Assembly: GCA_902511755.1 (NCBI GenBank) | Contig: CABXGL010000006.1 | Span: 1 to 64,000 of the forward strand | DNA length: 64,000 nucleotides | Source of the DNA: an uncultured Bacteroidota bacterium | GTDB lineage: Bacteria > Bacteroidota > Bacteroidia > Flavobacteriales > Flavobacteriaceae | Direction: 5' to 3' | Part shown: one piece after another, positions 2,224 through 14,258 of the stretch | How the letters are laid out: the number at the start of each line of letters is the position of its first letter | Position numbering within the stretch: position 1 is the first letter of the stretch | Program-made: the position numbers and the translations under genes | The notes under the pieces: generated by a model | What the model saw: the letters and a program-made list of their open reading frames with translations, nothing else | What the model was told of the DNA's origin: nothing | Database searches by the model: none

Positions 2224-3945
2224 ATGAAAAAAATTTTTGTTTTAATTATTTTTTCTTGCATACTTTTTTCATGTAATAAAAAAGAGATAGACAGACCCAA
2301 TGTAATACTAATAATTACAGATGATCAAGGTTTTGGAGATCTTGGATATAATGGAAACACTAATATATCTACTCCTAATATAGATACTCTAGCAGATGAA
2401 AGCCTACGTTTTAATAATTTCTATGTTTCTCCAGTTTGTGCTCCCACTAGATCAAGCCTAATGACCGGAAGATATTCTTTAAGAACTGGTGTAAGAGACA
2501 CATATAACGGAGGAGCAATAATGTCAACTGATGAAATTACTATTGCTGAAGTTTTAAAAGAAGCTAATTATAAAACAGGAATTTTTGGAAAATGGCATTT
2601 AGGAGATAATTATCCCTCCAGGCCTTCTGATCAAGGTTTTAATGAATCTTTAATTCATTTATCGGGAGGTATTGGTCAAGTTGGTGATATAACAAATTAT
2701 TTTCAAGGAAATACAAGTTATTTTGATCCTATGTTATGGTTAAATAATGAAAAGAAAAAATATGATGGATATTGCTCAGATATCTTTACGAATGAAGCCA
2801 TAAATTTTATAGATAAAAACAAATCAGAAAATTTTTTTTGTTACTTATCATTTAATGCTCCACATACTCCCCTACAACTACCAAAAAAATATTATGAAAT
2901 GTATAAAGATTTAGATCTAGAAAAAGTTTCTAATCAAGGTGATATTATCATGAGTGAAAAAGACAAAGAAGATGCAAAAAAAGTTTACGGAATGGTCTCT
3001 AACATTGATGACAATGTAGGAAGGTTGCTAAAAAAATTAGATGAACTAGGTATATCTGAGAATACAATTGTGATATTTATGACTGACAATGGTCCTCAGC
3101 AACGAAGATATGTTTCTGGTCTCAGGGGATTAAAAAGTGATGTTTATAATGGTGGAATTAAAGTTCCTTTTTACTTAAGATATCCACGATTTTTTTCTGA
3201 GGGTCAGGACAAAAATATTTTTTCAGCACATATAGATGTTTTACCCACTATATCAAAATTATGCGGTATAAGTTTGTCTAAAAAAAGAATAATTGACGGG
3301 ATTGATTTATTATCCAACACAAAAAACAAAAATAGATCGTTTTTCTCATATTGGACAAGAAGATTGCCGGAGTTATATAATAATATTTCCATACAAAAAG
3401 GTGATTATAAATTAGTTGGAAATACAAACTACAATTCTCCAATTACAGATTTTGAATTATTTAACATAACAAAAGATCCTTATGAAAAAATTAATTTAAT
3501 TGAAACTAATCAAACAAAGGCTTCCATTTTAAAAGTTGAGATAGATAGTTTTTATAATCATTTAATTAAATCAAAAAATTTAGTAGAACAACCAAGAATA
3601 ATTATAGGTAGTGAATTTGAAAATCCAACTATATTAAATAGAAATGATGCTAGCGGAGAAAGAGGTATTTGGGCACAAAGTGAAGTTTATGGATTTTGGA
3701 GAACTAAAATGCTGGATGGTACTTATAATTTCAAATTTAAATTTAAAGACATAAATCAATCCTTAGGTAAAATGTTATTAGAAATTGGGAATAAGACATT
3801 CAATATAAATTCAACTGTTGATAATGAAGGTTACATCATAATGAATGATATTTATGTAAATACAGGAAATTATGATATCATTCCTACATTTAAAACAGAA
3901 AGAAAAAATATTTTGCCATTTTGGGTTGAAATAACTAAAATTTAA
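2224..3945 (+). CDS. lipoprotein sulfatase with C-terminal beta extension
   Basis: A 573 aa sulfatase of the arylsulfatase (S1) family, which hydrolyses sulfate esters. Lipobox LFSC puts the lipid-modified Cys at residue 17. The metal-binding TDDQG lies near 32-36. The active-site signature CAPTRSSLMTGR gives C72 as the residue to be converted to formylglycine. GKWHLG and TDNGPQ supply further metal and substrate ligands. After the catalytic domain (to about residue 460) there is an extra C-terminal segment of about 110 residues, rich in beta strands and of unknown role, possibly substrate binding. Maturation needs an FGE or anSME enzyme that is not in this window. Substrate is unknown. Confidence 0.9.
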   Translation: MKKIFVLIIFSCILFSCNKKEIDRPNVILIITDDQGFGDLGYNGNTNISTPNIDTLADESLRFNNFYVSPVCAPTRSSLMTGRYSLRTGVRDTYNGGAIMSTDEITIAEVLKEANYKTGIFGKWHLGDNYPSRPSDQGFNESLIHLSGGIGQVGDITNYFQGNTSYFDPMLWLNNEKKKYDGYCSDIFTNEAINFIDKNKSENFFCYLSFNAPHTPLQLPKKYYEMYKDLDLEKVSNQGDIIMSEKDKEDAKKVYGMVSNIDDNVGRLLKKLDELGISENTIVIFMTDNGPQQRRYVSGLRGLKSDVYNGGIKVPFYLRYPRFFSEGQDKNIFSAHIDVLPTISKLCGISLSKKRIIDGIDLLSNTKNKNRSFFSYWTRRLPELYNNISIQKGDYKLVGNTNYNSPITDFELFNITKDPYEKINLIETNQTKASILKVEIDSFYNHLIKSKNLVEQPRIIIGSEFENPTILNRNDASGERGIWAQSEVYGFWRTKMLDGTYNFKFKFKDINQSLGKMLLEIGNKTFNINSTVDNEGYIIMNDIYVNTGNYDIIPTFKTERKNILPFWVEITKI

Positions 3946-3978
3946 TAAAAGTTTAATAGTTTTACTTAAAATAATAAG

Positions 3979-5097
3979 ATGGATAAATTAGATTTTTTAA
4001 AAATTACTTTTTTAGAAAATGAAGTAAAAGATTATATATTTTTTTTACTAATTCTACTGTTTGGTTATTTGTTAATCTCTCCAGTTAGTTCATATCTAAG
4101 AAAAATTATATTTAGAATAGTTGGAAATAAAAATCATGAAAATGGTAAAGTTGAATTTGATTCACTATTAAAAAAACCTCTATATTATTTTTTACTGTTA
4201 CTAATTTTTTACTTTGCTTTTAACTCATTAAGTTTTCCAGAGTCTTGGGGTTTAGTAGATTCATCTGAACTTGGTGTTAAAATGATTTTATCAAAAGTCT
4301 TTTTATTACTTTTAATTATTACAATTTTTTGGACTATTCTTCAGTCCGTTGAATACATAGGTATTAGATTAATATTCAAAGCTGAACAAACAGATAGTAA
4401 AGTAGATGATCAATTAATTCCTTTTGCAATTGAAATTGGAAAAGTACTAGTTATAATTTTTGCTATTGTTGTTGTCCTCGCAAATGTATTCGATCAAAAT
4501 GTAACGGCTTTAGCTGCGGGACTTGGGGTTGGTGGTGTTGCTGTTGCATTGGCTTCAAAAGAAAGTTTAGAAAATCTTTTAGGATCCTTCACAATCTTTT
4601 TAGATAAACCTTTTCAAGTTGGAGATGTAATTACAATAGGTTCAATTACAGGTATGGTTGAAAAAGTTGGATTTAGAAGTACAAGGGTTAGAACTTTTGA
4701 TAAAAGTATTGTTACAGTTCCTAATAAAAATCTAGTTAATGCGGAACTAGATAATTTAGGAGTAAGACCTGTTAGACGTGTAAAAATAAATATTGGATTA
4801 ACATATTCTTCATCTGTTGATCAAATAAAAAATATTGTAGACGATATTCAAAAATTAATTGATGACCATAAACAAACCAATCAAGACGGAAAAGTAAGAT
4901 TTTTAAACTTTGGTGATAGCTCTTTAGATGTGATGGTTCTTTATTATGTAAATAGCCCTGATTGGAATGTATTGGTTGATACCCAGCAGGAAATCAATTT
5001 TAAAATAATTGAGATTGTTAAAAAAAATAAAAGTGATTTTGCATATCCTACCACTTCAGTTTTTATAGAAAATCAAAACAAGTGGAATAAACAGTAA
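3979..5097 (+). CDS. MscS-family mechanosensitive channel
   Basis: An inner-membrane small-conductance mechanosensitive channel, 372 aa. It has N-terminal membrane helices near residues 17-37, 65-85 and 105-125, another near 153-172, then the Gly/Ala-rich pore helix (LAAGLGVGGVAVALASKES). The beta domain follows (FQVGDVITIGSITGMVEKVGFRSTRVRT) with the typical TVPN motif. The C-terminal cytoplasmic domain is shorter than in some homologues. The last codons (NKWNKQ) are the complement of a secretion-leader sequence found elsewhere in this window, so the tail of this gene may have been replaced by a recombination event. It is convergent with the epimerase operon, 41 bp away. Confidence 0.92.
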   Translation: MDKLDFLKITFLENEVKDYIFFLLILLFGYLLISPVSSYLRKIIFRIVGNKNHENGKVEFDSLLKKPLYYFLLLLIFYFAFNSLSFPESWGLVDSSELGVKMILSKVFLLLLIITIFWTILQSVEYIGIRLIFKAEQTDSKVDDQLIPFAIEIGKVLVIIFAIVVVLANVFDQNVTALAAGLGVGGVAVALASKESLENLLGSFTIFLDKPFQVGDVITIGSITGMVEKVGFRSTRVRTFDKSIVTVPNKNLVNAELDNLGVRPVRRVKINIGLTYSSSVDQIKNIVDDIQKLIDDHKQTNQDGKVRFLNFGDSSLDVMVLYYVNSPDWNVLVDTQQEINFKIIEIVKKNKSDFAYPTTSVFIENQNKWNKQ

Positions 5098-5118
5098 TAG
5101 TAGAAGAAGTTTTTTCAT
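5080..5118 (-). repeat. orphan copy of the secretion-leader repeat (copy 3)
   Basis: On the minus strand this 39-bp segment reads ATGAAAAAACTT followed by TTCTACTATTACT and TTTATTCCACTT. It encodes MKKLLLLLLFIPL, then VLIFYKN and a stop, giving a 20-codon frame (5056-5118) with no mature protein. It differs at 2 of 39 positions from each of the leaders at 10152-10190 and 13803-13841, including identical choices among synonymous leucine codons, which indicates common descent. It overlaps the 3' end of the MscS gene on the other strand and lies 20 bp past the stop of the epimerase gene. Confidence 0.8.
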
Positions 5119-5138
5119 AAAAAAATTCTAATTAATTA

Positions 5139-6296
5139 TTAAATATTTAATCTTTTAGAAATTTGAGAAAGAATTAAGAGAGCTCTAGGGACATGAAAAC
5201 ATCCTTTCCACTTGCCTCCTTTTAAATTTAAAAGCTTATCCCCATTCCTTTGTAAATATCCATACCATTCGCCTCCATTTGAATCTCTAAAATTAGACCA
5301 TGTATAAGTATAAATTTTCTGAAACCATTCAAAACATTTATTTGATCCTGAAAGCTCGTAACCTCTCAAAAAACATATTAAAGCTTCAAGATGCACCCAC
5401 CATAATTTCTGATTCCATTCTAATTGTTGGGGAGAATGACCATCAGAATCTAGAAAGTAAAAAATGCCTTTCATCTCATTATCCCATCCGTGATCTACAA
5501 TATTCAAAGCAATTTGAATTGACTTTTGTATCCATTCGTCTCTTTTAAATTCTTCTCCTAAATTCATTATAAACCACATTGCCTCTAATCCATGACCAGG
5601 ATTAATTAATCTCCCATCGAATGAATCAGAAAATCTACCATCACTAAATACATTTTCTCTAATTATTTTCTTTTCAGAGTCATAAAAGTGATTAAATATT
5701 TGATCTACGCATTCCTCTGCTATTTTAATTCTTTCGTGTTGATCAACAAGATCTCCAAGTTCACTGTATAAATTGCATAAAATCATAGGGAGTGCAAAGT
5801 TTTTTAAATCTCTTGTTCCACTAATTGACTTATTCCATTTAGACTTAGGATTACTTGATCGTTCTTGAATTTTTTTTAAAGTCTCAATTGAAATTTTCTT
5901 ATAGCATTCATCGTTGGTTATTTTATAAAGTTTACCAAATGCCATACATGAAAATGTATAGGAAAATATATTGTAAGGACTAATTAATGGCTTCCCTTTT
6001 TTAGTAACTGAGAAATACCAATTATAAGATCCATCATGTCCAAATTTTTTAAGAAATTTGGCTCCATTCTGACTTATTTCTAGCCACTCTTTTTTATTAT
6101 CAACTTGTTCATATAATGTTGCAAATATCCAGACTTGTCGAGCTTGTAACCATATAAATTTATCTGTATCAAAAACTTTATTTTTATCATCAATACAAGT
6201 AAAAAATCCTCCATTAACTTTATCTAAACTGAAATTCTGCCAAAAGGGAATTACTTCATTTACTAATTCATCTAAAAAAATATTTTGATATTTCAT
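5139..6296 (-). CDS. N-acylglucosamine 2-epimerase (AGE) family sugar epimerase/isomerase
   Basis: A 385 aa (alpha/alpha)6-barrel protein of the AGE family. Members include N-acylglucosamine 2-epimerase, cellobiose/mannobiose 2-epimerase and aldose-ketose isomerases. Visible catalytic-site residues are R53 (LQARQVW), H235 (NPGHGLEAMW), H302 (WWVHLEAL) and H368 (GCFHVPRALL). There is no signal peptide, so it is cytosolic. It is the last gene of a four-gene minus-strand run, one base after the DUF4434 gene, and probably converts the sugar brought in by the symporter. The exact substrate cannot be read from sequence; mannose/glucosamine- or disaccharide-type epimerisation is equally possible. 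Confidence 0.85.
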   Translation of the reverse strand: MKYQNIFLDELVNEVIPFWQNFSLDKVNGGFFTCIDDKNKVFDTDKFIWLQARQVWIFATLYEQVDNKKEWLEISQNGAKFLKKFGHDGSYNWYFSVTKKGKPLISPYNIFSYTFSCMAFGKLYKITNDECYKKISIETLKKIQERSSNPKSKWNKSISGTRDLKNFALPMILCNLYSELGDLVDQHERIKIAEECVDQIFNHFYDSEKKIIRENVFSDGRFSDSFDGRLINPGHGLEAMWFIMNLGEEFKRDEWIQKSIQIALNIVDHGWDNEMKGIFYFLDSDGHSPQQLEWNQKLWWVHLEALICFLRGYELSGSNKCFEWFQKIYTYTWSNFRDSNGGEWYGYLQRNGDKLLNLKGGKWKGCFHVPRALLILSQISKRLNI

Positions 6297-6297
6297 T

Positions 6298-7239
6298 TTA
6301 TCTTTTGTCTAAATAATCCATGTATCGATTATACAAATGATTGGCTTGAATATATGACGATTGAGGACTCATAAAATGAGAAAATTCAAAAGTTATAGCC
6401 TCTTTAATTCCTGCTTTAGATGCAATATCTAATTTATATTTTAACTTATCCCATTTTATTGGCAGAAACTTGATAGGCATATCTCTGTCAAAGGTTTCAG
6501 TATTAATCCACGATTCAATATTATTTTTATCTGCTAATTCTTTGTTTACTTTAATAAAATCTAAGAGCTGATCGTAATTAACATGACCATCTTGAAAAGC
6601 AACAATATCTACTGCTCCTTTAATACCGCTAAAAATCTTTTCCCATTCTTTAAAATGACTATCAATAGTAATTGATTTTTCTCTTTTGACGTCACTAGTG
6701 TACTGTGAAATATTTTTAACTCCATCAATATATGGGGAAATTAATACTGGTAAATTATTTGAAATTTTTTTACAATGATTCCCTAAGTCACCATATATGT
6801 CAATAATTCCTGAAATATTTTTATTGCATTCTTGTGATAGATACCATCCTTTAAATGATGAACTATTTCCGTAATTTTCCCACACTTCTTCAATGACTTT
6901 TTTATTTAGATTTATCTCCTGAATGTATTTCCCTTCATTCCAATACTTACCTGAATCATACAAGCCAAAGAAAAAATCAAAATTGTATTTTTCACTTAGC
7001 TTTAAAAAAAGTGCAACTAAATCAACATCAGGATTTATAACATTTTGTTCTAGTTTCAAAACTTTTGATGGATAGGTGACCCAATTTCTGTATCCTGAAC
7101 GAATTAAAATAACCTTATTTATCCCTGCTCTTTTCATATAAAAAAAATCATTATCCCACTCTTTTTCACTCCAATTTTGATGTGGTATATCGTGACTTAT
7201 TTCATCTAAAAATGTCCCCTTAATCATAATTTGATTCAT
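6298..7239 (-). CDS. DUF4434-type TIM-barrel protein, putative glycoside hydrolase-like
   Basis: A 313 aa cytosolic-looking protein with no signal peptide. The opening (IKGTFLDEISHDIPHQNWSEKEWDNDF) and the alternation of strands and helices match DUF4434, a TIM-barrel family related to glycosidases. Conserved-looking acidic positions include SQECN near residue 130, and VAFQDGH and ETFD in the second half. It is packed between the symporter gene (next base) and the epimerase gene (one base away), so co-translation and a role in the same sugar pathway are likely. No member function is known to me, so the enzymatic role is inferred from fold and context only. Confidence 0.7.
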   Translation of the reverse strand: MNQIMIKGTFLDEISHDIPHQNWSEKEWDNDFFYMKRAGINKVILIRSGYRNWVTYPSKVLKLEQNVINPDVDLVALFLKLSEKYNFDFFFGLYDSGKYWNEGKYIQEINLNKKVIEEVWENYGNSSSFKGWYLSQECNKNISGIIDIYGDLGNHCKKISNNLPVLISPYIDGVKNISQYTSDVKREKSITIDSHFKEWEKIFSGIKGAVDIVAFQDGHVNYDQLLDFIKVNKELADKNNIESWINTETFDRDMPIKFLPIKWDKLKYKLDIASKAGIKEAITFEFSHFMSPQSSYIQANHLYNRYMDYLDKR

Positions 7240-9066
7240 TTAATAATTTTCTTCTTTCTTTAAATTATCATACCAAAATTTCTTTAATAATATAGTTGTA
7301 ATTATAACAACTAAAATTGATATTATAAATCCATCCCATTTTTTAATGAGCAAATACATTGGCCATACAACAAGTGACATTTGCCATATTATACCAACAA
7401 ATACATTAAACATATCTCTTCCAAAATTTTTGTTCTGTATAAAGTTTTTATCTGTCTTTTTTACTTCATCAAAAACTGGCTTCCAAAACCCCCAAGGTTT
7501 CACATTTTTATAAAAACTTTTAAGTTTTTCCATATCATCAGGTGATGTTAATAACGATCCTAATAAACATCCTAGAATGGAAAGAACAAAAATTATTGGG
7601 AAAAAATAAATATCAATCCAACTTGTAAAAAATAAAAGCTTTATAGTGGAAGCTATAAGACCTATAAGCATTCCCCAAAAATATCCATAACCATTAAATC
7701 TCCACCAAATCCACTTTAGTACATTTGCAGCAGTATAGCCGCCAAATAAAGAGGCTGTAATCCATAAAGTGATTGAATTTAATGATGAAGCAAAGAATCC
7801 AAAAAACACACCAATTATAACTAATAATAATGATGATAAATAGCCATATTTAACATAGGTTTTCTCACTTTTATTAGGTAATAAATTGTTTTTAAGAAGA
7901 TCATTAGCAATGTATGCTGGAGCTGCATTAATTACTGCTGCAAAAGTGCCCATAAATGCAGACAATAATCCAGTCAATAATAATCCTTTAAGTCCAACCG
8001 GCACAAATTTAGAAATGGAATAAGGCAATATTGTTTCAAAATCAATTTGTGACATATTTGAAAGTTCAGGTGTTAGAAAAACTAAAGCTAGGACCGCAAA
8101 TGCAGCAATCATTAAATATCTTGGTGAAAATAATACTAAGATTGTAAACCCACTCATTTTAGCAGCTTCGAATGGGTTCTTCGCTGACAATAATCTTTGC
8201 ATATCGTATCCAGGAACAGGTCCAGCTAAACTTGAAAAAAACCCTTTAAATAACATCATCATGAATAATGCTCCTATAATTTCGAAACCATCAGTTTTAA
8301 TTTTTTCATTCAATTGTGGTAAAGTTTGTGACCAATCTAAATCCATCGTCCATCCAAAAAATAAATTTTCCCAACCACCTGGAACTATATTGGAAATTTG
8401 ATCATAAGTAACTGCATTATATGCAATTATAGCAATAATTATACTTGATATTGTCATAATCACATACTGAAAAACTTCAGTTGCAACTACACTCATCATG
8501 CCTCCTCTTAAAGTGTACATTGTTGTTATTCCCACTATAATTAAAGCATACATGTTTTCAGAACTTATAGAAATTAAATCCGAATTAAATGCTAAATTCC
8601 ATGGTAGTATTGAGTCGCAGAACTTTCCAATACCTTCAAAAAAATATGCTACAAAACCTATAGCGCTAACAACAGCAAAAATAATAGTTATATTTTTTGA
8701 TAATTTACCTCCAGCTCCACTAAATCTTGTTAAAATCCAAGAGGCCCCTGTCATTACATTTGATCTTCTTATCCAAACTGCCAAAAAAACCATTACAAAA
8801 ACTTGATTCCATACAGGCCATAACCATGGAATCCATGCGCTTTTTAAACCATATATAAATAATATTGTAACTGTCCACATAACACCTGAAATATCAAACA
8901 TTCCAGATGCATTTGATAAGCCTAACAAATACCATTTGATTTTATTACCCCCCAGAAAATATTGATCTAAATTTTTTCTTGCTTTATTTGAGAGCATAAA
9001 TCCCACAATCAATACGAGAACGAAATAAGAAAGAATAATAATAAAATCTAATATTTCTAATCCCAT
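7240..9066 (-). CDS. sodium:solute symporter (SSS) family transporter
   Basis: An inner-membrane Na+-coupled importer of 608 aa with about 13-14 hydrophobic helices. The SSS core is visible from the first helix (IILSYFVLVLIVGFML, then YFLGG) through segments such as AFVLTP-type and TGLLSAFMGTFAAVINAAPAYIANDL. Long C-terminal helices extend it beyond the usual 500-550 aa. It lies 8 bp after the GHL10 lipoprotein and directly before the DUF4434 gene in the minus-strand operon, which points to uptake of a monosaccharide or sugar acid released outside. Sialic acid, glucose and myo-inositol carriers all belong to this family; the substrate is undetermined. Confidence 0.9.
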   Translation of the reverse strand: MGLEILDFIIILSYFVLVLIVGFMLSNKARKNLDQYFLGGNKIKWYLLGLSNASGMFDISGVMWTVTILFIYGLKSAWIPWLWPVWNQVFVMVFLAVWIRRSNVMTGASWILTRFSGAGGKLSKNITIIFAVVSAIGFVAYFFEGIGKFCDSILPWNLAFNSDLISISSENMYALIIVGITTMYTLRGGMMSVVATEVFQYVIMTISSIIIAIIAYNAVTYDQISNIVPGGWENLFFGWTMDLDWSQTLPQLNEKIKTDGFEIIGALFMMMLFKGFFSSLAGPVPGYDMQRLLSAKNPFEAAKMSGFTILVLFSPRYLMIAAFAVLALVFLTPELSNMSQIDFETILPYSISKFVPVGLKGLLLTGLLSAFMGTFAAVINAAPAYIANDLLKNNLLPNKSEKTYVKYGYLSSLLLVIIGVFFGFFASSLNSITLWITASLFGGYTAANVLKWIWWRFNGYGYFWGMLIGLIASTIKLLFFTSWIDIYFFPIIFVLSILGCLLGSLLTSPDDMEKLKSFYKNVKPWGFWKPVFDEVKKTDKNFIQNKNFGRDMFNVFVGIIWQMSLVVWPMYLLIKKWDGFIISILVVIITTILLKKFWYDNLKKEENY

Positions 9067-9074
9067 TATTAATT

Positions 9075-10190
9075 TTATCTATTAAAGGTTTCATAATAAA
9101 AAAACACTTCCCCATTAATACCCTTTGATCTGTGGTAATTAATCATTTCTATAAGTAAAGAATCCTCAACCCGATATCCATCTCCAAGTGATGATAATAC
9201 ACCTGCATATATTTTGTTTTTTTCATAAGGTGAGACTTGTTGATCTATTTGATCAATAATTTTTTTATAATCTTCAATATTTCGCCTATAAAATTGAGGG
9301 ATTATAAAATCTGCATAACCCTCATCAAGCCACTTAGGCCAATCTTGTAAATACTCTCTTAAAGCCCAAGGATAAATACTTGGAGCCCACGATACTAAAA
9401 CATCTGGGTCAATTTTTTTTACAGAATTGTACACAGTTTTTCCAAATTCACTTAATTTATCAGCCCTCCATTTTAACCAGTTTTCATCTTTATAATTTAA
9501 GGGTGGTTGTTTACCAAAATCATCAAAATATAATTTTTTTGTAAAATCATCGTACCCGCCCTCTGATGGCATAGCAGGCAATCTATCATCTCCTTGTATT
9601 CCATCAATTTTATAATTCATAACTACTTCACTTACAAGATCTAGAAGAAGTTTTTGTGGTTCAGGATTCATAGCATTCCACCATAAAAAATTATTTTTCT
9701 TGAGTAAATTTCCATCACTATCTCTTCCTGCCCAATCAGGAAATTTATTTAACCAAATACTATTAAGATCATTATAAGCATATGAAAAACCAAACTCAAA
9801 CCATGCATGGACTTTTATACCTTCTTTGTGAGACTCTTCAATTAAAAGCTCTAACGGATCAAATCCACTAAATTTTAAATCTTGTTTAATACCAATATAT
9901 TTTTCTAAAACTTCACTTGGATACTGGGTCACTCCTTTGTTCCAGACTACAACAAAAAGATTATTTATACCATATTTAACAGCATTTTTTACTGTAATTT
10001 TTATGTTTTCACGGGACACCAAAGCATCGCTCGCTACATTAGTAACCCAAGCTCCTCTAAAATTAGATTGTGGAAGACAATTTTCTAATTTTATATTATC
10101 TCCTTGACAATTCTGTAAAGATTCTTTTTTGGTTAAATCACAAGAAAAAAAAAGTGGAATAAATAGTAATAGTAGAATAAGTTTTTTCAT
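9075..10190 (-). CDS. GHL10-type glycoside hydrolase-like lipoprotein
   Basis: A 371 aa cell-surface or periplasmic lipoprotein, lipobox LFFSC with C17. The mature part starts with FRGAWVTNVASDALVSRENI, the hallmark opening of the GHL10/DUF187 TIM-barrel family. HAWFEFGFSYAYND and the acidic cluster DGIQGDDRLP lie near the expected catalytic face. It is the first gene of the sugar operon running to 5139 and presumably trims an oligosaccharide outside the inner membrane. Its leader DNA is one of three nearly identical copies in the window. Here the leader is followed by a lipobox, whereas the copy at 13803 leads to a soluble-type cleavage site. Confidence 0.85.
   Translation of the reverse strand: MKKLILLLLFIPLFFSCDLTKKESLQNCQGDNIKLENCLPQSNFRGAWVTNVASDALVSRENIKITVKNAVKYGINNLFVVVWNKGVTQYPSEVLEKYIGIKQDLKFSGFDPLELLIEESHKEGIKVHAWFEFGFSYAYNDLNSIWLNKFPDWAGRDSDGNLLKKNNFLWWNAMNPEPQKLLLDLVSEVVMNYKIDGIQGDDRLPAMPSEGGYDDFTKKLYFDDFGKQPPLNYKDENWLKWRADKLSEFGKTVYNSVKKIDPDVLVSWAPSIYPWALREYLQDWPKWLDEGYADFIIPQFYRRNIEDYKKIIDQIDQQVSPYEKNKIYAGVLSSLGDGYRVEDSLLIEMINYHRSKGINGEVFFYYETFNR
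10152..10190 (-). repeat. secretion-leader repeat (copy 2)
   Basis: The first 39 bases of the GHL10 lipoprotein gene. They differ at 2 of 39 positions from the leader at 13803-13841 and at 2 of 39 from the orphan leader at 5080-5118. Copies 2 and 3 point the same way and flank the four-gene sugar operon as direct repeats; copy 1 is inverted relative to both. Confidence 0.8.
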
Positions 10191-10230
10191 TTTCTTAAAT
10201 ATAAGAATTGCTAATTTAAAAAAAGAAGAT

Positions 10231-10386
10231 ATGCCTTTATTTATAGATAATCCTCCACAGGTTGTTGTATTTAAAAATGAAAAGGAAAAGAAGGAATGGG
10301 ATGAAGCAAGTGATGAAGAAAAACAAAGGTTAGTAAAACCTTATACATTTAAAGATGGACTTGATATTCTTTTTGATGAAAATTAA
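10231..10386 (+). CDS. small conserved-looking hypothetical protein (51 aa)
   Basis: Starts at an ATG preceded by an A/G-rich stretch (AAAAGAAGAT), 40 bp from the divergent GHL10 gene. The product is MPLFIDNPPQVVVFKNEKEK and continues with a strongly charged middle (EKKEWDEASDEEKQRLVK), ending in TFKDGLDILFDEN. There is no signal peptide or membrane segment. An upstream in-frame non-ATG start exists, but it would overlap the leader repeat of the opposite gene and is unlikely. Coding is supported by the length in AT-rich DNA and by protein-like composition. I do not recognise a family. Confidence 0.55.
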   Translation: MPLFIDNPPQVVVFKNEKEKKEWDEASDEEKQRLVKPYTFKDGLDILFDEN

Positions 10387-10435
10387 GTCCCTAAATAAGT
10401 ATATTTGCAAACAGAAATTTTAATGTTTTAGAAGT

Positions 10436-10459
10436 GCCGTTGTAAACGCCGTTGTAAAC
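10436..10459 (+). repeat. 12-bp perfect tandem repeat upstream of tRNA-Arg
   Basis: The unit GCCGTTGTAAAC occurs twice back to back, 46 bp before the tRNA gene. It is GC-richer than the surrounding intergenic DNA. It could be a protein-binding site or a slip-duplication; nothing in the sequence decides. Confidence 0.6.
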
Positions 10460-10505
10460 ATTTTTAATATTAAGATTTTATAAACACCCTCTGAACAGAG
10501 GAAAT

Positions 10506-10579
10506 GGCCTCGTAGCATAACTGAATAGTGCACTTGATTACGGCTCAAGAGGTTGCAGGTTTGAATCCTGCCGAGGTCA
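10506..10579 (+). tRNA. tRNA-Arg (anticodon ACG)
   Basis: Full cloverleaf. Acceptor GGCCTCG (10506-10512) pairs with CGAGGTC (10572-10578) with one G-U. D stem GCAT pairs with GTGC. Anticodon stem CTTGA pairs with TCAAG around loop TTACGGC, anticodon ACG at 10540-10542. T stem GCAGG pairs with CCTGC. The discriminator is A and CCA is not encoded. Wobble A34 would need deamination to inosine to read CGN codons. Unusually, the D loop has G18-A19 instead of G18-G19 and the T loop is TTTGAAT instead of TTCGAAT, so position 56 is U: the tertiary 19-56 pair has changed from G-C to A-U. Confidence 0.93.
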
Positions 10580-10583
10580 CTAT

Positions 10584-10617
10584 AGGGAAATTAACAAGTT
10601 TCATTTCCCTTTTTTTT
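10584..10617 (+). terminator. intrinsic terminator after tRNA-Arg
   Basis: Stem AGGGAAAT (10584-10591) pairs with ATTTCCCT (10103 bases into the 10.6 kb line, 10603-10610), 11-base loop, followed by a run of T residues. It lies 5 bp past the tRNA and separates it from the secreted protein gene at 10646. Confidence 0.75.
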
Positions 10618-10645
10618 ATTAAATTGAATAATCAAAAATACTATT

Positions 10646-12685
10646 ATGAAAAAAATAATTTTAACTACACTTTTTTCTTGTTTTATTTTAACATTGTATT
10701 CTCAAAACAAGACAATAATCTCTGATCTTGATGGACTTAAATTAAACATAGGTGAGTCATTTAGTCCAAACACATATGTTTCTAATTCTGATGGATTGAA
10801 ATCTAATTGCAGTAATATTATTTATTATAACAAAAAGGGTGTATTTTCTTCTGCCACTTCTATCTCAGTTGATAATGAAAATGGATCGATAAAAGCTAAT
10901 GAATCCGGATTTCATGAAGTAGTGGCTATATGTATTGGAGAAGGTGGAAAAAGACATACTAAAACATTTGAGGTTTTTGTTAATTATCCAAAAATTAAAG
11001 AAGTTAAGTTAAAACTTGAAAACAATTCAATTTATGTAGGAAATTACATTCCACTTGTATATGAGATAACAGATGAATTAGATATTACCCGAACTATTGA
11101 TTATTGGAGCACTGATATTGCCTCAAAATATTTTTCAAATATTAGCTTTTCTCTAAATGCACTTAATGAAAGAATAAACATTGATAGTTCAAACAATATT
11201 CTTGCTGTTAATGACGGTTTTTCATCAATTGAGGCTGATATTGATGGAATTAAAGGAAAAATAGATGTTAGAATTTTAAAAAACCCTACTTCAAAAATTG
11301 AATTAGTTTCTGATAATGATAACGTAATAACTGGAGATGTAATTCAATTTAAAGCTACAGCTTATGATAAAAAAGGTAAAGTTCTAAGTAATTTACCTGT
11401 TGATTTTTCTTTTACTGGAAAATCATTTGATAAAAGCAACACGGCATCAGGACTTATTTTAGAAGATGGAAGATTTGTTGGAGATGTTGCAGGAAAATAT
11501 ATTATATCTGCAAAAATTGGTAATGTAACAACATCCAAAGTTGTAAATATTTTTCAAAGAAATGTAAAAAGAGAAGTTAAAACTGTTGGAACTGGTTTAG
11601 TCAATGATAAACACACTTCAGATTTCTGGGTTTTTGAAGGAGTTGATGGAAATGATTATGCAGTGACTGGAACTTGGGGGGCTGATGGAACATCTTATTT
11701 TTGGGATGTAACTGAGCCAACAAACATAAAAAAAATAGACAGTGTTCAAGTTGATGCAAGAACAGTTAATGATGTTAAAGTGTCTGCAGATGGAAAAATA
11801 TGCGTTATCAGTCGAGAAGGTGCTTCAAATAGAAAAAATGGTATAATTATTATAGATGTTTCAAATCCTTATGATGTAAAAATAATTTCTGAGTATACTA
11901 AAAACTTAACTGGTGGAGTACATAATATTTTTATATATGAAAATCATGTTTATGCATTAAGTAATGGACAAAAATATTATATTATTAATATAGATGATCC
12001 CAAAAATCCTAAGGAGATTGGAATGTTTGAAATTGGAAAAGAAGGTCAATCTATTCATGATGTCTGGATTGAAGATGGAATTGCCTATTCTTCAAACTGG
12101 AGAGATGGAGTTTATTTGGTTGATGTAGGAAATGGAATTGTAGGAGGCTCCCCATCTAAACCTATTGCTTTTGGAAATTACACTTATGATAGTGGTGCAA
12201 ATCATGCTGCATTTCCATTTAAAAGTAAATCTACTGGAAAATTTTACACAATACTTGGAGATGAAATTTTTCCAAATGGTGTAAATGCAAATGGATTAAG
12301 TGAAACTGCTGGGTTTCTACATTTTGTTGATTTTGATGACTTAAATAACCCAAAAGAAGTTGCTAGATATGAACTTCCTGGCCATGGATCACATAATTAT
12401 TGGATTGAAGGTGATATTCTATATGTAGCTATGTATTCGGGAGGTGTCAGAGTTGTTGATATCAGTGGTGACTTATTGGGTGATCTATATAAACAAGGAA
12501 GAGAAATTGGTTATATTTTACCCAGTAGTCCCAATGGATATATTGCAAATGCAACTATGGTTTGGGGAGCTCAGTTATATAAAGGACATGTTTTCTATTC
12601 AGATTTTAACACTGGTCTTGGAGCAGCTAAAGTAGCTAAAGTAAAACCCGATAATTCAAAAACAAACCAACATTTAGTAGATTAA
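10646..12685 (+). CDS. secreted LVIVD-repeat beta-propeller protein with N-terminal Ig-like domains
   Basis: A 679 aa exported protein; the signal peptide ends near LYSQ (residue 20). Residues 25-300 look like two or three bacterial Ig-like (BIG-type) domains, for example the segments ending in FEVFVNYP and GKYIISAKIGNVTTSKVVN. Residues about 310-650 carry LVIVD-type blades: GIIIIDVSNPYDVKIISEY, YYIINIDDPKNPKEIGMFEI, LHFVDFDDLNNPKEVARYEL and GVRVVDISG. Such propellers mediate binding in the periplasm or at the surface; no catalytic motif is visible. Its stop overlaps the start of the next propeller gene by one base, so they are co-translated. Ligand unknown. Confidence 0.8.
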   Translation: MKKIILTTLFSCFILTLYSQNKTIISDLDGLKLNIGESFSPNTYVSNSDGLKSNCSNIIYYNKKGVFSSATSISVDNENGSIKANESGFHEVVAICIGEGGKRHTKTFEVFVNYPKIKEVKLKLENNSIYVGNYIPLVYEITDELDITRTIDYWSTDIASKYFSNISFSLNALNERINIDSSNNILAVNDGFSSIEADIDGIKGKIDVRILKNPTSKIELVSDNDNVITGDVIQFKATAYDKKGKVLSNLPVDFSFTGKSFDKSNTASGLILEDGRFVGDVAGKYIISAKIGNVTTSKVVNIFQRNVKREVKTVGTGLVNDKHTSDFWVFEGVDGNDYAVTGTWGADGTSYFWDVTEPTNIKKIDSVQVDARTVNDVKVSADGKICVISREGASNRKNGIIIIDVSNPYDVKIISEYTKNLTGGVHNIFIYENHVYALSNGQKYYIINIDDPKNPKEIGMFEIGKEGQSIHDVWIEDGIAYSSNWRDGVYLVDVGNGIVGGSPSKPIAFGNYTYDSGANHAAFPFKSKSTGKFYTILGDEIFPNGVNANGLSETAGFLHFVDFDDLNNPKEVARYELPGHGSHNYWIEGDILYVAMYSGGVRVVDISGDLLGDLYKQGREIGYILPSSPNGYIANATMVWGAQLYKGHVFYSDFNTGLGAAKVAKVKPDNSKTNQHLVD

Positions 12686-13788
12686 TGAGATTATTTATAA
12701 TAGTTTTTTTCTTTTTTGGACATGTTCAATCTCAAAGTTATTTTGTTTATGTCGCAGCTGAATCAGATGATACAGTTTCGTTAATAAAATTTAGCAACAA
12801 TAAAAGTGAAGAAATAGAAAGAATTGATGTTGGATTACTACCAACTGAGATTGAAGGTCCTCACGGAATAACCGTTGATCCTAATGGAGAATATTGGTAT
12901 TTATCTCTTGCCCATGGAAATCCTTTTGGGAAACTCATTAAATTTTCAACAAAAAATAACAAACCTATTGACCAAACCACTCTAGGTTTATTTCCAGCAT
13001 CAATGCAAATATCATCTGTAACTGGATTATTATACTGTGTAAACTTCAACCTTCATGGGGATATGAAACCTAGTAGTGTATCCGTGGTTGATCCAGAAAC
13101 TATGACTGAAATCAAACGTATCAAAACTGGTACAATGCCTCATGGATCTAGATTATCATTTGATGGTTTGAAACAATACTCTGTTTCAATGATGTCATCA
13201 GAACTCTATGAAATAGATGCTATTAGTTTAAAAGTTTCCAGAAAATTGAGTCTAGATAATAAAATGAGTATGGATAAATCTATGAATGAGAAAATGACGA
13301 TGAATGAATCTATGAAAAAGAAGATGAATATGAAAGAAATGAATCACTCTAAAGTTAAGCCTACATGGGTTATTCCACACCCATCAAAAAACATTGCTTA
13401 TATCGCAGGAAATGGTTCAAATGAAATAATTGAAGTTGATTTAAAAAATTGGAAAATTAGCAATCGAATTTCTACTGGTAAAGGACCTTATAATGTTGAA
13501 ATTTCACCTGATGGAAAATTTCTTATTGCTACTTTGAAAAGTGAAGGAACCACTGCAATTTTAGATTTAGAAAATGATTTTAAATCTAAAATAATTAAAA
13601 ATACTACCAGCGTTACACATGGAATTGCCATTTCAAGTGATAGTAAATATGCTTTTGTTTCAGTTGAGGGTATTGGTGGTGAACCAGGTGTTGTAGATGT
13701 AATAAGTCTTGAAAAACTGGAAAAAATTTCTTCAGTTAATATTGGTAAGCAAGCAGGAGGAATTGCTTTTTGGAAAATTAAAAATTAA
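12685..13788 (+). CDS. secreted YncE-like beta-propeller with a methionine-rich insertion
   Basis: A 367 aa exported protein (signal peptide ending near HVQSQS) with YVTN/YncE-like propeller repeats, for example PHGITVDPNGEYWYLSLAHG, PHGSRLSFDGLKQYSV, GPYNVEISPDGKFLIATLKS and VTHGIAISSDSKYAFVSVEG. Between blades, residues about 190-222 form a Met/Lys-rich segment with MSMDKSMNEK and MTMNESMKKK followed by MNMKEMNH, close to one Met in every three residues. Met clusters of this kind bind copper in periplasmic proteins such as PcoA and CueO. The start overlaps the preceding stop by one base, and a DUF4920 gene with a CPMKGCWM motif follows, so a periplasmic metal-related role is a reasonable inference. 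Confidence 0.8.
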   Translation: MRLFIIVFFFFGHVQSQSYFVYVAAESDDTVSLIKFSNNKSEEIERIDVGLLPTEIEGPHGITVDPNGEYWYLSLAHGNPFGKLIKFSTKNNKPIDQTTLGLFPASMQISSVTGLLYCVNFNLHGDMKPSSVSVVDPETMTEIKRIKTGTMPHGSRLSFDGLKQYSVSMMSSELYEIDAISLKVSRKLSLDNKMSMDKSMNEKMTMNESMKKKMNMKEMNHSKVKPTWVIPHPSKNIAYIAGNGSNEIIEVDLKNWKISNRISTGKGPYNVEISPDGKFLIATLKSEGTTAILDLENDFKSKIIKNTTSVTHGIAISSDSKYAFVSVEGIGGEPGVVDVISLEKLEKISSVNIGKQAGGIAFWKIKN

Positions 13789-13802
13789 CTACCTTTATAA
13801 AA

Positions 13803-13841
13803 ATGAAAAAACTAATTCTACTATTACTGTTTATTCCACTT
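13803..13841 (+). repeat. secretion-leader repeat (copy 1)
   Basis: The first 39 bases of the DUF4920 gene. 37 of 39 match each of the two minus-strand copies at 10152-10190 and 5080-5118; the match with the orphan copy goes on for four more bases (GTTT). This copy leads into a type I cleavage site (SFGQ). Confidence 0.8.
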
Positions 13842-14258
13842 GTTTCTTTTGGGCAAGATAAAAGTATTTTAAATTATTATGGTGAAAAAATTGATTTAAT
13901 TGGAATAGAAAACTATAAAGAAAACAAGTTTAGTTTATTAAATAATTCTGAAAAAAACATAAAAATTGAAGGTGAGATTCTTTCAACTTGTCCTATGAAA
14001 GGATGTTGGATGAAAATAGAGGTTGAAAAAGACACAGTCCTTGTTAGATTTAAAGATTATGGTTTCTTTGTTCCTAAAACAGGATCTGAAGGCAAATCAA
14101 CAATAGTTAATGGTAAAATATCTGTTGATACAATTAGTGTAAAACAATTAAAACATTACGCCGAAGATGCTGGAAAATCTAAACATGAAATTTCCTTAAT
14201 AAATAAACCAGAAATTACTCTTTCATTTCTAGCAGATGGCGTAATAATTAAAGATTAA
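13803..14258 (+). CDS. DUF4920 secreted protein
   Basis: A 151 aa exported protein; the signal peptide ends near SFGQ (residue 18). The mature protein is a small OB-fold-like DUF4920 domain with a conserved-looking TCPMKGCWM motif (C63, M65, C68, M70), which suggests metal or redox binding. It follows the Met-rich propeller gene after 14 bp on the same strand, the third gene of a probable operon starting at 10646. Its leader DNA is one of the three near-identical leader copies. DUF4920 function is not established to my knowledge; metal binding is inferred from the Cys/Met pattern. Confidence 0.8.
   Translation: MKKLILLLLFIPLVSFGQDKSILNYYGEKIDLIGIENYKENKFSLLNNSEKNIKIEGEILSTCPMKGCWMKIEVEKDTVLVRFKDYGFFVPKTGSEGKSTIVNGKISVDTISVKQLKHYAEDAGKSKHEISLINKPEITLSFLADGVIIKD

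Follow-up and report, generated by a model that had tools for sequence, protein, structure and literature searches.

A signal-peptide DNA segment probably reshuffled by recombination among genes for exported proteins in marine Flavobacteriaceae

Recombination has probably carried a DNA segment of 39-53 bp that encodes a Sec signal peptide, referred to here as the leader, to the front of dozens of unrelated genes within one genus of marine Flavobacteriaceae. The leader was encountered in a window of 64,000 nucleotides (positions 1 to 64,000 of the forward strand of contig CABXGL010000006.1, GenBank assembly GCA_902511755.1) from an uncultured Bacteroidota bacterium. This contig, C6, belongs to a genome of 1.41 Mb that is 68% complete, and our genome-wide statements rest on sequence searches of that genome. 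A first-pass annotation of the window had pointed out three near-identical 39-bp copies and proposed that they share descent and represent a mobile or recombining export leader. Here we report the anatomy, distribution and apparent exchange of this leader.

Results

The three 39-mers lie at 5080-5118 (minus strand), 10152-10190 (minus) and 13803-13841 (plus), exactly where they had been placed, and the identity claimed for them is also correct: each pair (5118-/10190-, 5118-/13803+ and 10190-/13803+) agrees at 37 of 39 bases. The two differences per pair are confined to leader bases 12, 13 and 27. The 39-mer pattern, with up to three mismatches allowed, occurs in the window at exactly these three places and had no match in 100 dinucleotide-preserving shuffles of the window. 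In two cases the ATG of the leader is the start of a gene, and the leader forms its first 13 codons. The first is GHL10 (glycosyl-hydrolase-like 10; 9075-10190, minus; Pfam PF02638, E 6e-54), a lipoprotein with the lipobox FFSC, and the second is DUF4920 (13803-14258, plus; PF16267, E 3e-27), which has a signal peptidase I site (VSFG↓Q); the mature proteins are unrelated, as the first-pass annotation had stated. The third copy is an orphan that opens MKKLLLLLLFIPLVLIFYKN-stop (20 amino acids), and its 3' end is fused antisense into the last codons of a gene for an MscS-type channel.

These copies are not the only ones in the genome, in which a search with the 39-mer found 12 copies at three or fewer mismatches and none for a reversed control pattern. 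Descent rather than convergence is further supported by the codons. Because CTA and CTG are rare among the Leu codons of the window (12% and 1.8%, respectively), the codon string of the leader has a probability of only 3e-7 given the peptide and the codon usage of the window, and two independent genes with the same peptide would agree at all codons with a probability of 9e-5. Among 397 genomes of the family, representing 237 genera, a peptide-degenerate pattern that admits any codons had 22 matches in only two genera, all of which use the same codons apart from a few changes, and the leader peptide was found written in other codons in none. Codon bias, by which unrelated leaders with the same peptide could have come to share third positions, was thus rejected as the source of the identity. 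The leader codons, including the rare Leu codons, are conserved regardless of the gene downstream.

The leader encodes the peptide MKKL(I/L)LLLLFIPLV, which is followed by a signal peptidase I site (SFG↓Q) or a lipobox Cys. To define its borders, 100 copies heading 73 distinct and unrelated downstream sequences or families were compared column by column. Information per column is 0.04-0.10 bit upstream of the ATG (0.10 at -30 to -1), rises to 1.54 at +1 to 39, falls to 0.81 at +40 to 57 and is 0.12 thereafter. Similarity therefore sets in with the first base of the ATG and is gradually lost by base 53; the promoter side, at about 0.1 bit, lies outside the shared segment, and the copies have no shared flanks. 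When 102 copies were classified by cleavage context, a small residue followed by Gln was found in 53 and a lipobox Cys in 31 (together 84), the former being the arrangement known as the Q-rule for Bacteroidetes signal peptidase I (PMC5837995). The proteins headed by the leader span at least 13 Pfam families: TPR, M28, M20, M15, sulfatase, GH18, serine hydrolase, TonB_C, MORN, SGL, DUF6370, GHL10 and DUF4920. Orphans or stubs of fewer than 60 amino acids account for 17 of the 102 copies. As they match the consensus as closely as the other copies do, the conservation of the leader suggests recency rather than long selection.

The start of the leader also occurs in another setting. Of the 102 leaders, 15 overlap the upstream gene by ATGA, compared with 2.1% of ATGA sites, and leader bases 1 to 22 or 24 are found directly before native ATGs, usually with the leader frame ending in an overlapping ATGA. 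Such prefixes of 22-24 nt precede native starts at L059 468, L062 7250, L072 1926, L073 8549, L099 6272 and other loci, as if the start of the leader also acted as a translation-coupling module.

Within the genus, the leader is present in 18 of 22 genomes, with up to 15 copies per genome that are often arranged in tandem; at locus L059, a single strand bears six of them within about 3 kb. In the family survey of 397 genomes, it was found in 4 of the 237 genera. A scan of approximately 85,000 species genomes yielded 47 stretches with the leader, all from marine Bacteroidetes and including single-cell genomes, and the named carriers among the relatives are uncultured marine Flavobacteriaceae or 'Cryomorphaceae BACL29'. 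Carriage by phages or plasmids was rejected: collections of viral contigs and of phages gave no leader match, and a plasmid search gave no convincing one, only a weak partial match in Runella. Natural transformation via ComEC was likewise rejected, since ComEC (PF03772) was found in 0 of the 22 genus genomes by a search that was positive in 10 of 14 control genomes.

The history of the leader was compared with that of the gene behind it in pairs of homologous leadered genes (at least 80% identity) that lie in different places, with non-leadered genes of the same loci as controls. The adjacent upstream sequence was kept in 2 of 25 leadered pairs but in 31 of 55 control pairs (Fisher p=3e-5). 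Within the leader, bases 1-27 agree between copies of the same gene no better than label-shuffled leaders do, bases 28-39 agree slightly more often than by chance (p=0.012) and bases 40-57 far more often (p<0.001). The first part of the leader is therefore not linked to the gene and the last part is, which indicates that exchange takes place inside the leader and that its left part has a history separate from that of the gene. The same uncoupling is seen from the other side, as one upstream gene (96% identity over 349 bp) is followed by the leader and a MORN gene in genome G000 and by the leader and a TPR gene in G002.

Orthologues with native signal peptides further indicate how the leader reaches a gene. 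Three loci of the CFSYK lipoprotein family (L082, L071/L198 and L100/L204) have differing native signal peptides that end in ILFQSC or FLFQSC; at L058 and L062, leader-like DNA extends for about 29 nt and then gives way to a native SFLFQSC, and at L060 the leader extends to about nt 42 and is followed by FQGC. In DUF2911 the junction falls near leader nt 30, and DUF6370 genes are found both with and without the leader. From these alignments, native signal peptides appear to have been overwritten from the left, with right-hand junctions that vary.

Leadered genes are also found in new places. A TonB_C/CarbopepD gene is present in two copies in G016 that are 99% identical, with similarity from the ATG onward; one leadered gene is 99.6% identical between two species (G002 and G004), and across genera (G006/G156) a leadered M28 peptidase reaches 96% identity. 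In G007, an insertion of about 2.1 kb that includes a leadered DUF6370 gene lies upstream of a leadered gene of the beta-lactamase family, and both of its flanks are intact in comparison with G000 and G002. Taken together, the uncoupling inside the leader, the replacement of native signal peptides and the movement of genes within and between species uphold that part of the first-pass proposal which described the leader as recombining; they do not support mobility in the sense of a transposon.

Many leadered genes are directly followed by an intergenic repeat (REP, TAAACCATAGGCATATCTTCTTCTTTTAATTCAG...), and relatives of REP precede many leaders. The repeat (TAAACCATAGGCATATC...) occurs in 19 of the 22 genus genomes and often begins at the stop codon of a gene; of 82 leadered genes, 27 have it shortly behind their own stop codon. 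An alignment of 88 instances from the collected loci revealed a mosaic of sub-blocks, and six REPs folded into hairpins no better than shuffled sequences (z -0.3 to 1.9). The reverse strand of many copies ends ...AELKEEDMPMV-stop. REPs could be read as fragments of a small tRNA-linked gene with this tail, but no family matched the possible full-length relative. A small protein (..NPPQVVVFKNEKEKKEW..) is encoded beside tRNA genes in two genomes, at 10208-10386 (plus) of the window and at 4035-4385 (minus) of L099, where the copy matched nothing in Pfam or PHROGs; it may have to do with how the repeat arose.

Leader loci are often near tRNA genes, and an Rfam search of the arrays found tRNAs only. 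A duplicated tRNA 3' end as an island border was detected at 1 of 28 tested genes. At this locus (L108, genome G351, from another genus), exact 52-bp repeats of the tRNA-Arg(tct) 3' end and terminator (5638-5689 and 6642-6706) bracket a leadered gene like an integration-site duplication; no integrase was seen there.

In the window itself, the orphan and GHL10 leaders lie on the same strand 5,072 bp apart and enclose four genes, namely GHL10 and a three-gene block (5139-9066, minus) that consists of a GlcNAc 2-epimerase family gene (5139-6296) and genes at 6298-7239 and 7240-9066. Leader aside, the four-gene block had only weak (64%) matches to the epimerase, in two of 21 related genomes. A degraded REP (10191-10244, minus; pattern match at 10208-10235, minus, with three mismatches; assigned by the 88-REP alignment) lies between GHL10 and tRNA-Arg(acg) (10506-10580, plus), which adjoins the variable island and also flanks leader copies in G002, G004, G006 and G007. 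The DUF4920 orthologues of G007 (L117:6145) and G002 (L111:6528) carry the same leader. Behind the conserved gene at 12685-13788, the leader and DUF4920 follow in G000 and G007, and a REP, the leader and an M20 peptidase follow in G006; in G002, the leader and DUF4920 stand directly after the tRNA.

The channel gene next to the orphan (3979-5097, plus; Pfam MS_channel domains) ends NQNKWNKQ-stop inside the leader, its last codons, KWNKQ, being read from the leader in antisense; in G002 the homologous gene ends NQNVKK-stop. Homology to the genes of G002 and G005 ends at or before window position 5078, which places the junction at 5078/5079. Over 3941-5078 the channel gene adjoins a sulfatase-like gene, and in G002 it is followed by an aromatic amino acid hydroxylase-like gene (identified by eye). 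Its placement would be a gene-sized relocation with almost gene-precise borders.

Discussion

We consider it likely that this export tag behaves as a swappable start cassette that recombination reshuffles among genes and across species. Two copies of the leader, in one genome or in incoming DNA, would provide homology for general or annealing-type recombination, and the downstream gene could therefore be exchanged. New genes may be captured through short homology on both sides, because most exported genes in genomes of this kind start with ATGAAAAAA and carry a Leu-rich stretch that ends in SFGQ or SC; such two-sided homology would explain why the left edge at the ATG is sharp and the right edge fuzzy. 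Together with the intergenic REPs, leadered genes would then form gene-cassette islands, often beside tRNA genes, from which leadered genes could move within and between species and yield an instantly exported protein. A dedicated enzyme would not be needed for this process, and none was found: the IntI model TIGR02249 had no match over its cut-off in the 22 genomes, and the only recombinase hits were of the XerC/XerD type.

Several points weigh against this interpretation. Transport between cells is explained neither by ComEC (0/22) nor by the viral, phage or plasmid searches. Because some REP elements upstream of the leader are themselves shared, exchange also occurs upstream of it. The loci were selected by leader similarity, so that the bracketing of the leader edges is partly conditional on this choice, and most of the genomes are incomplete metagenome-assembled or single-cell genomes. 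Finally, recombination is read here from its products and was not observed in real time.

A bolder and more doubtful possibility is that the leader is a selfish or domesticated start cassette of less than 60 bp that is actively installed at start codons by a dedicated recombination or copying activity. It might, tentatively, be installed either in frame as a signal peptide or as an ATGA-coupled prefix before genes whose products are not exported. If this were true, the leader would be the first mobile signal peptide described in bacteria.

We regard it as unlikely that a dedicated site-specific system is responsible, in which the leader or the leader-REP junction is the site of a recombinase and leader, gene and REP make up genuine cassette units like those of integrons or Xer/dif modules. 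The tandem same-strand arrays of mostly small, gene-sized units with the leader at the front, the REPs close behind stop codons, the frequent proximity of tRNA genes and the one island flanked by a repeated tRNA 3' end would all fit such a system. However, IntI did not exceed the cut-off in any of the 22 genomes, the Xer-type hit close to leaders has a housekeeping setting, with bS21-like and tRNA-Thr/Tyr/Gly/Thr genes on its two sides, the REPs fold no better than shuffles, and the junctions fall at leader nt 22-24, 27-31 and 39-53 rather than at one crossover point. The absence of IntI and of an attC-like hairpin, together with the several junction positions, therefore leaves a dedicated system possible but not supported. 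An integron in particular had looked strong on account of the arrays and repeats, and was rejected because the hits are of the XerC/XerD type and the REPs do not fold.

It is quite improbable that the leader is maintained by selection on its RNA or DNA, for example for translation start or mRNA targeting, combined with inheritance or convergence, so that the shuffling is incidental. Selection would account for the sharp edge at the ATG, for the excess of ATGA overlaps and for the retention of the 22-24 nt prefixes with these overlaps before native starts even where no signal peptide is encoded. It would not account for the absence of the leader from nearly all other genera, for orphan and antisense-fused copies that are conserved as well as functional ones, or for the persistence of native alternatives in orthologues. 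Moreover, orthologous leadered genes (the window compared with L117 and L111) show about equal divergence in the leader and in the gene.

Short repeats can cause assemblers to join the wrong neighbours, and many leader copies do lie near contig ends in short-read metagenome-assembled genomes. An assembly artefact is nevertheless very improbable and largely excluded, because the leader is also found in single-cell genomes (AG- assemblies), because insertions with both flanks intact occur, and because five copies lie on G017 contigs of 233, 619 and 858 kb. The longest of these contigs (857,809 bp) exceeds 0.668 Mb, the largest Illumina contig in the table of the FRAM18 study (PMC8254474), and can therefore be expected to stem from that study's PacBio HiFi assemblies. 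Ordinary duplication, with leadered genes as paralogues whose mature parts have diverged past recognition, is hardly credible in spite of the tandem arrays, as it is contradicted by the unrelated Pfam families of mature parts behind a nearly identical leader and by the occurrence of the same families with other signal peptides.

Reshuffling of the leader by recombination has its closest known counterpart in the terminal reassortment of type III effectors, reportedly described by Stavrinides, Ma and Guttman in 2006. In both, a shared 5' end that carries an export signal is placed on unrelated coding sequences (here 73 families and at least 13 Pfam families) and gives rise to new proteins for export. 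A passage in a further paper describes terminal reassortment as a process that shuffles N-termini (PMC2668190). Unlike in that process, the signal here is a Sec signal peptide, the leader DNA starts at the ATG to the exclusion of the upstream or promoter region, and up to 15 copies per genome head unrelated enzymes and lipoproteins in a free-living marine group. Like integron cassettes, the arrays are mostly in the same orientation, with genes of varied or unknown functions, a repeat between them and contents that differ among relatives; unlike these cassettes, the leader system has neither IntI nor a folded attC, and the shared part is a coding 5' leader that is not on every gene. Xer-dependent dif modules (pdif) of Acinetobacter plasmids are gene-sized units bounded by short sites and moved in trans by host recombinases; leadered genes are likewise gene-sized, but their junctions fall inside the leader. 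In polymorphic toxins (see PMC3482391) and contact-dependent growth inhibition (CDI)/Rhs tip exchange, unrelated C-terminal parts are acquired by recombination within an N-terminal part that is conserved. The conserved part here is instead a signal peptide of 13 codons, and what follows is a whole, ordinary exported protein. The leader peptide agrees with Bacteroidetes Q-rule signal peptides in its MKK n-region, Leu-rich h-region and cleavage before Gln or a lipobox Cys, but the Q-rule operates at the protein level and does not explain identical leader codons. Among the open-licence papers searched, we found none that prints the leader peptide or describes such a module, and none that reports a Sec signal-peptide module with so many copies, so sharp a start and identity down to the codons.

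In summary, the leader provides a countable case, at the DNA level, of the origin of exported proteins, in which dozens of unrelated genes within one genus have captured, or received by grafting, one signal-peptide sequence. Orthologues with native, half-grafted and fully grafted signal peptides can still be seen, and a stretch of 57 bp shows where the upstream history parts from the downstream one. It thus becomes possible to test whether the evolution of signal peptides proceeds mostly in place or through recombination, and the case points to a route of exchange in streamlined marine Flavobacteriaceae that lack ComEC.

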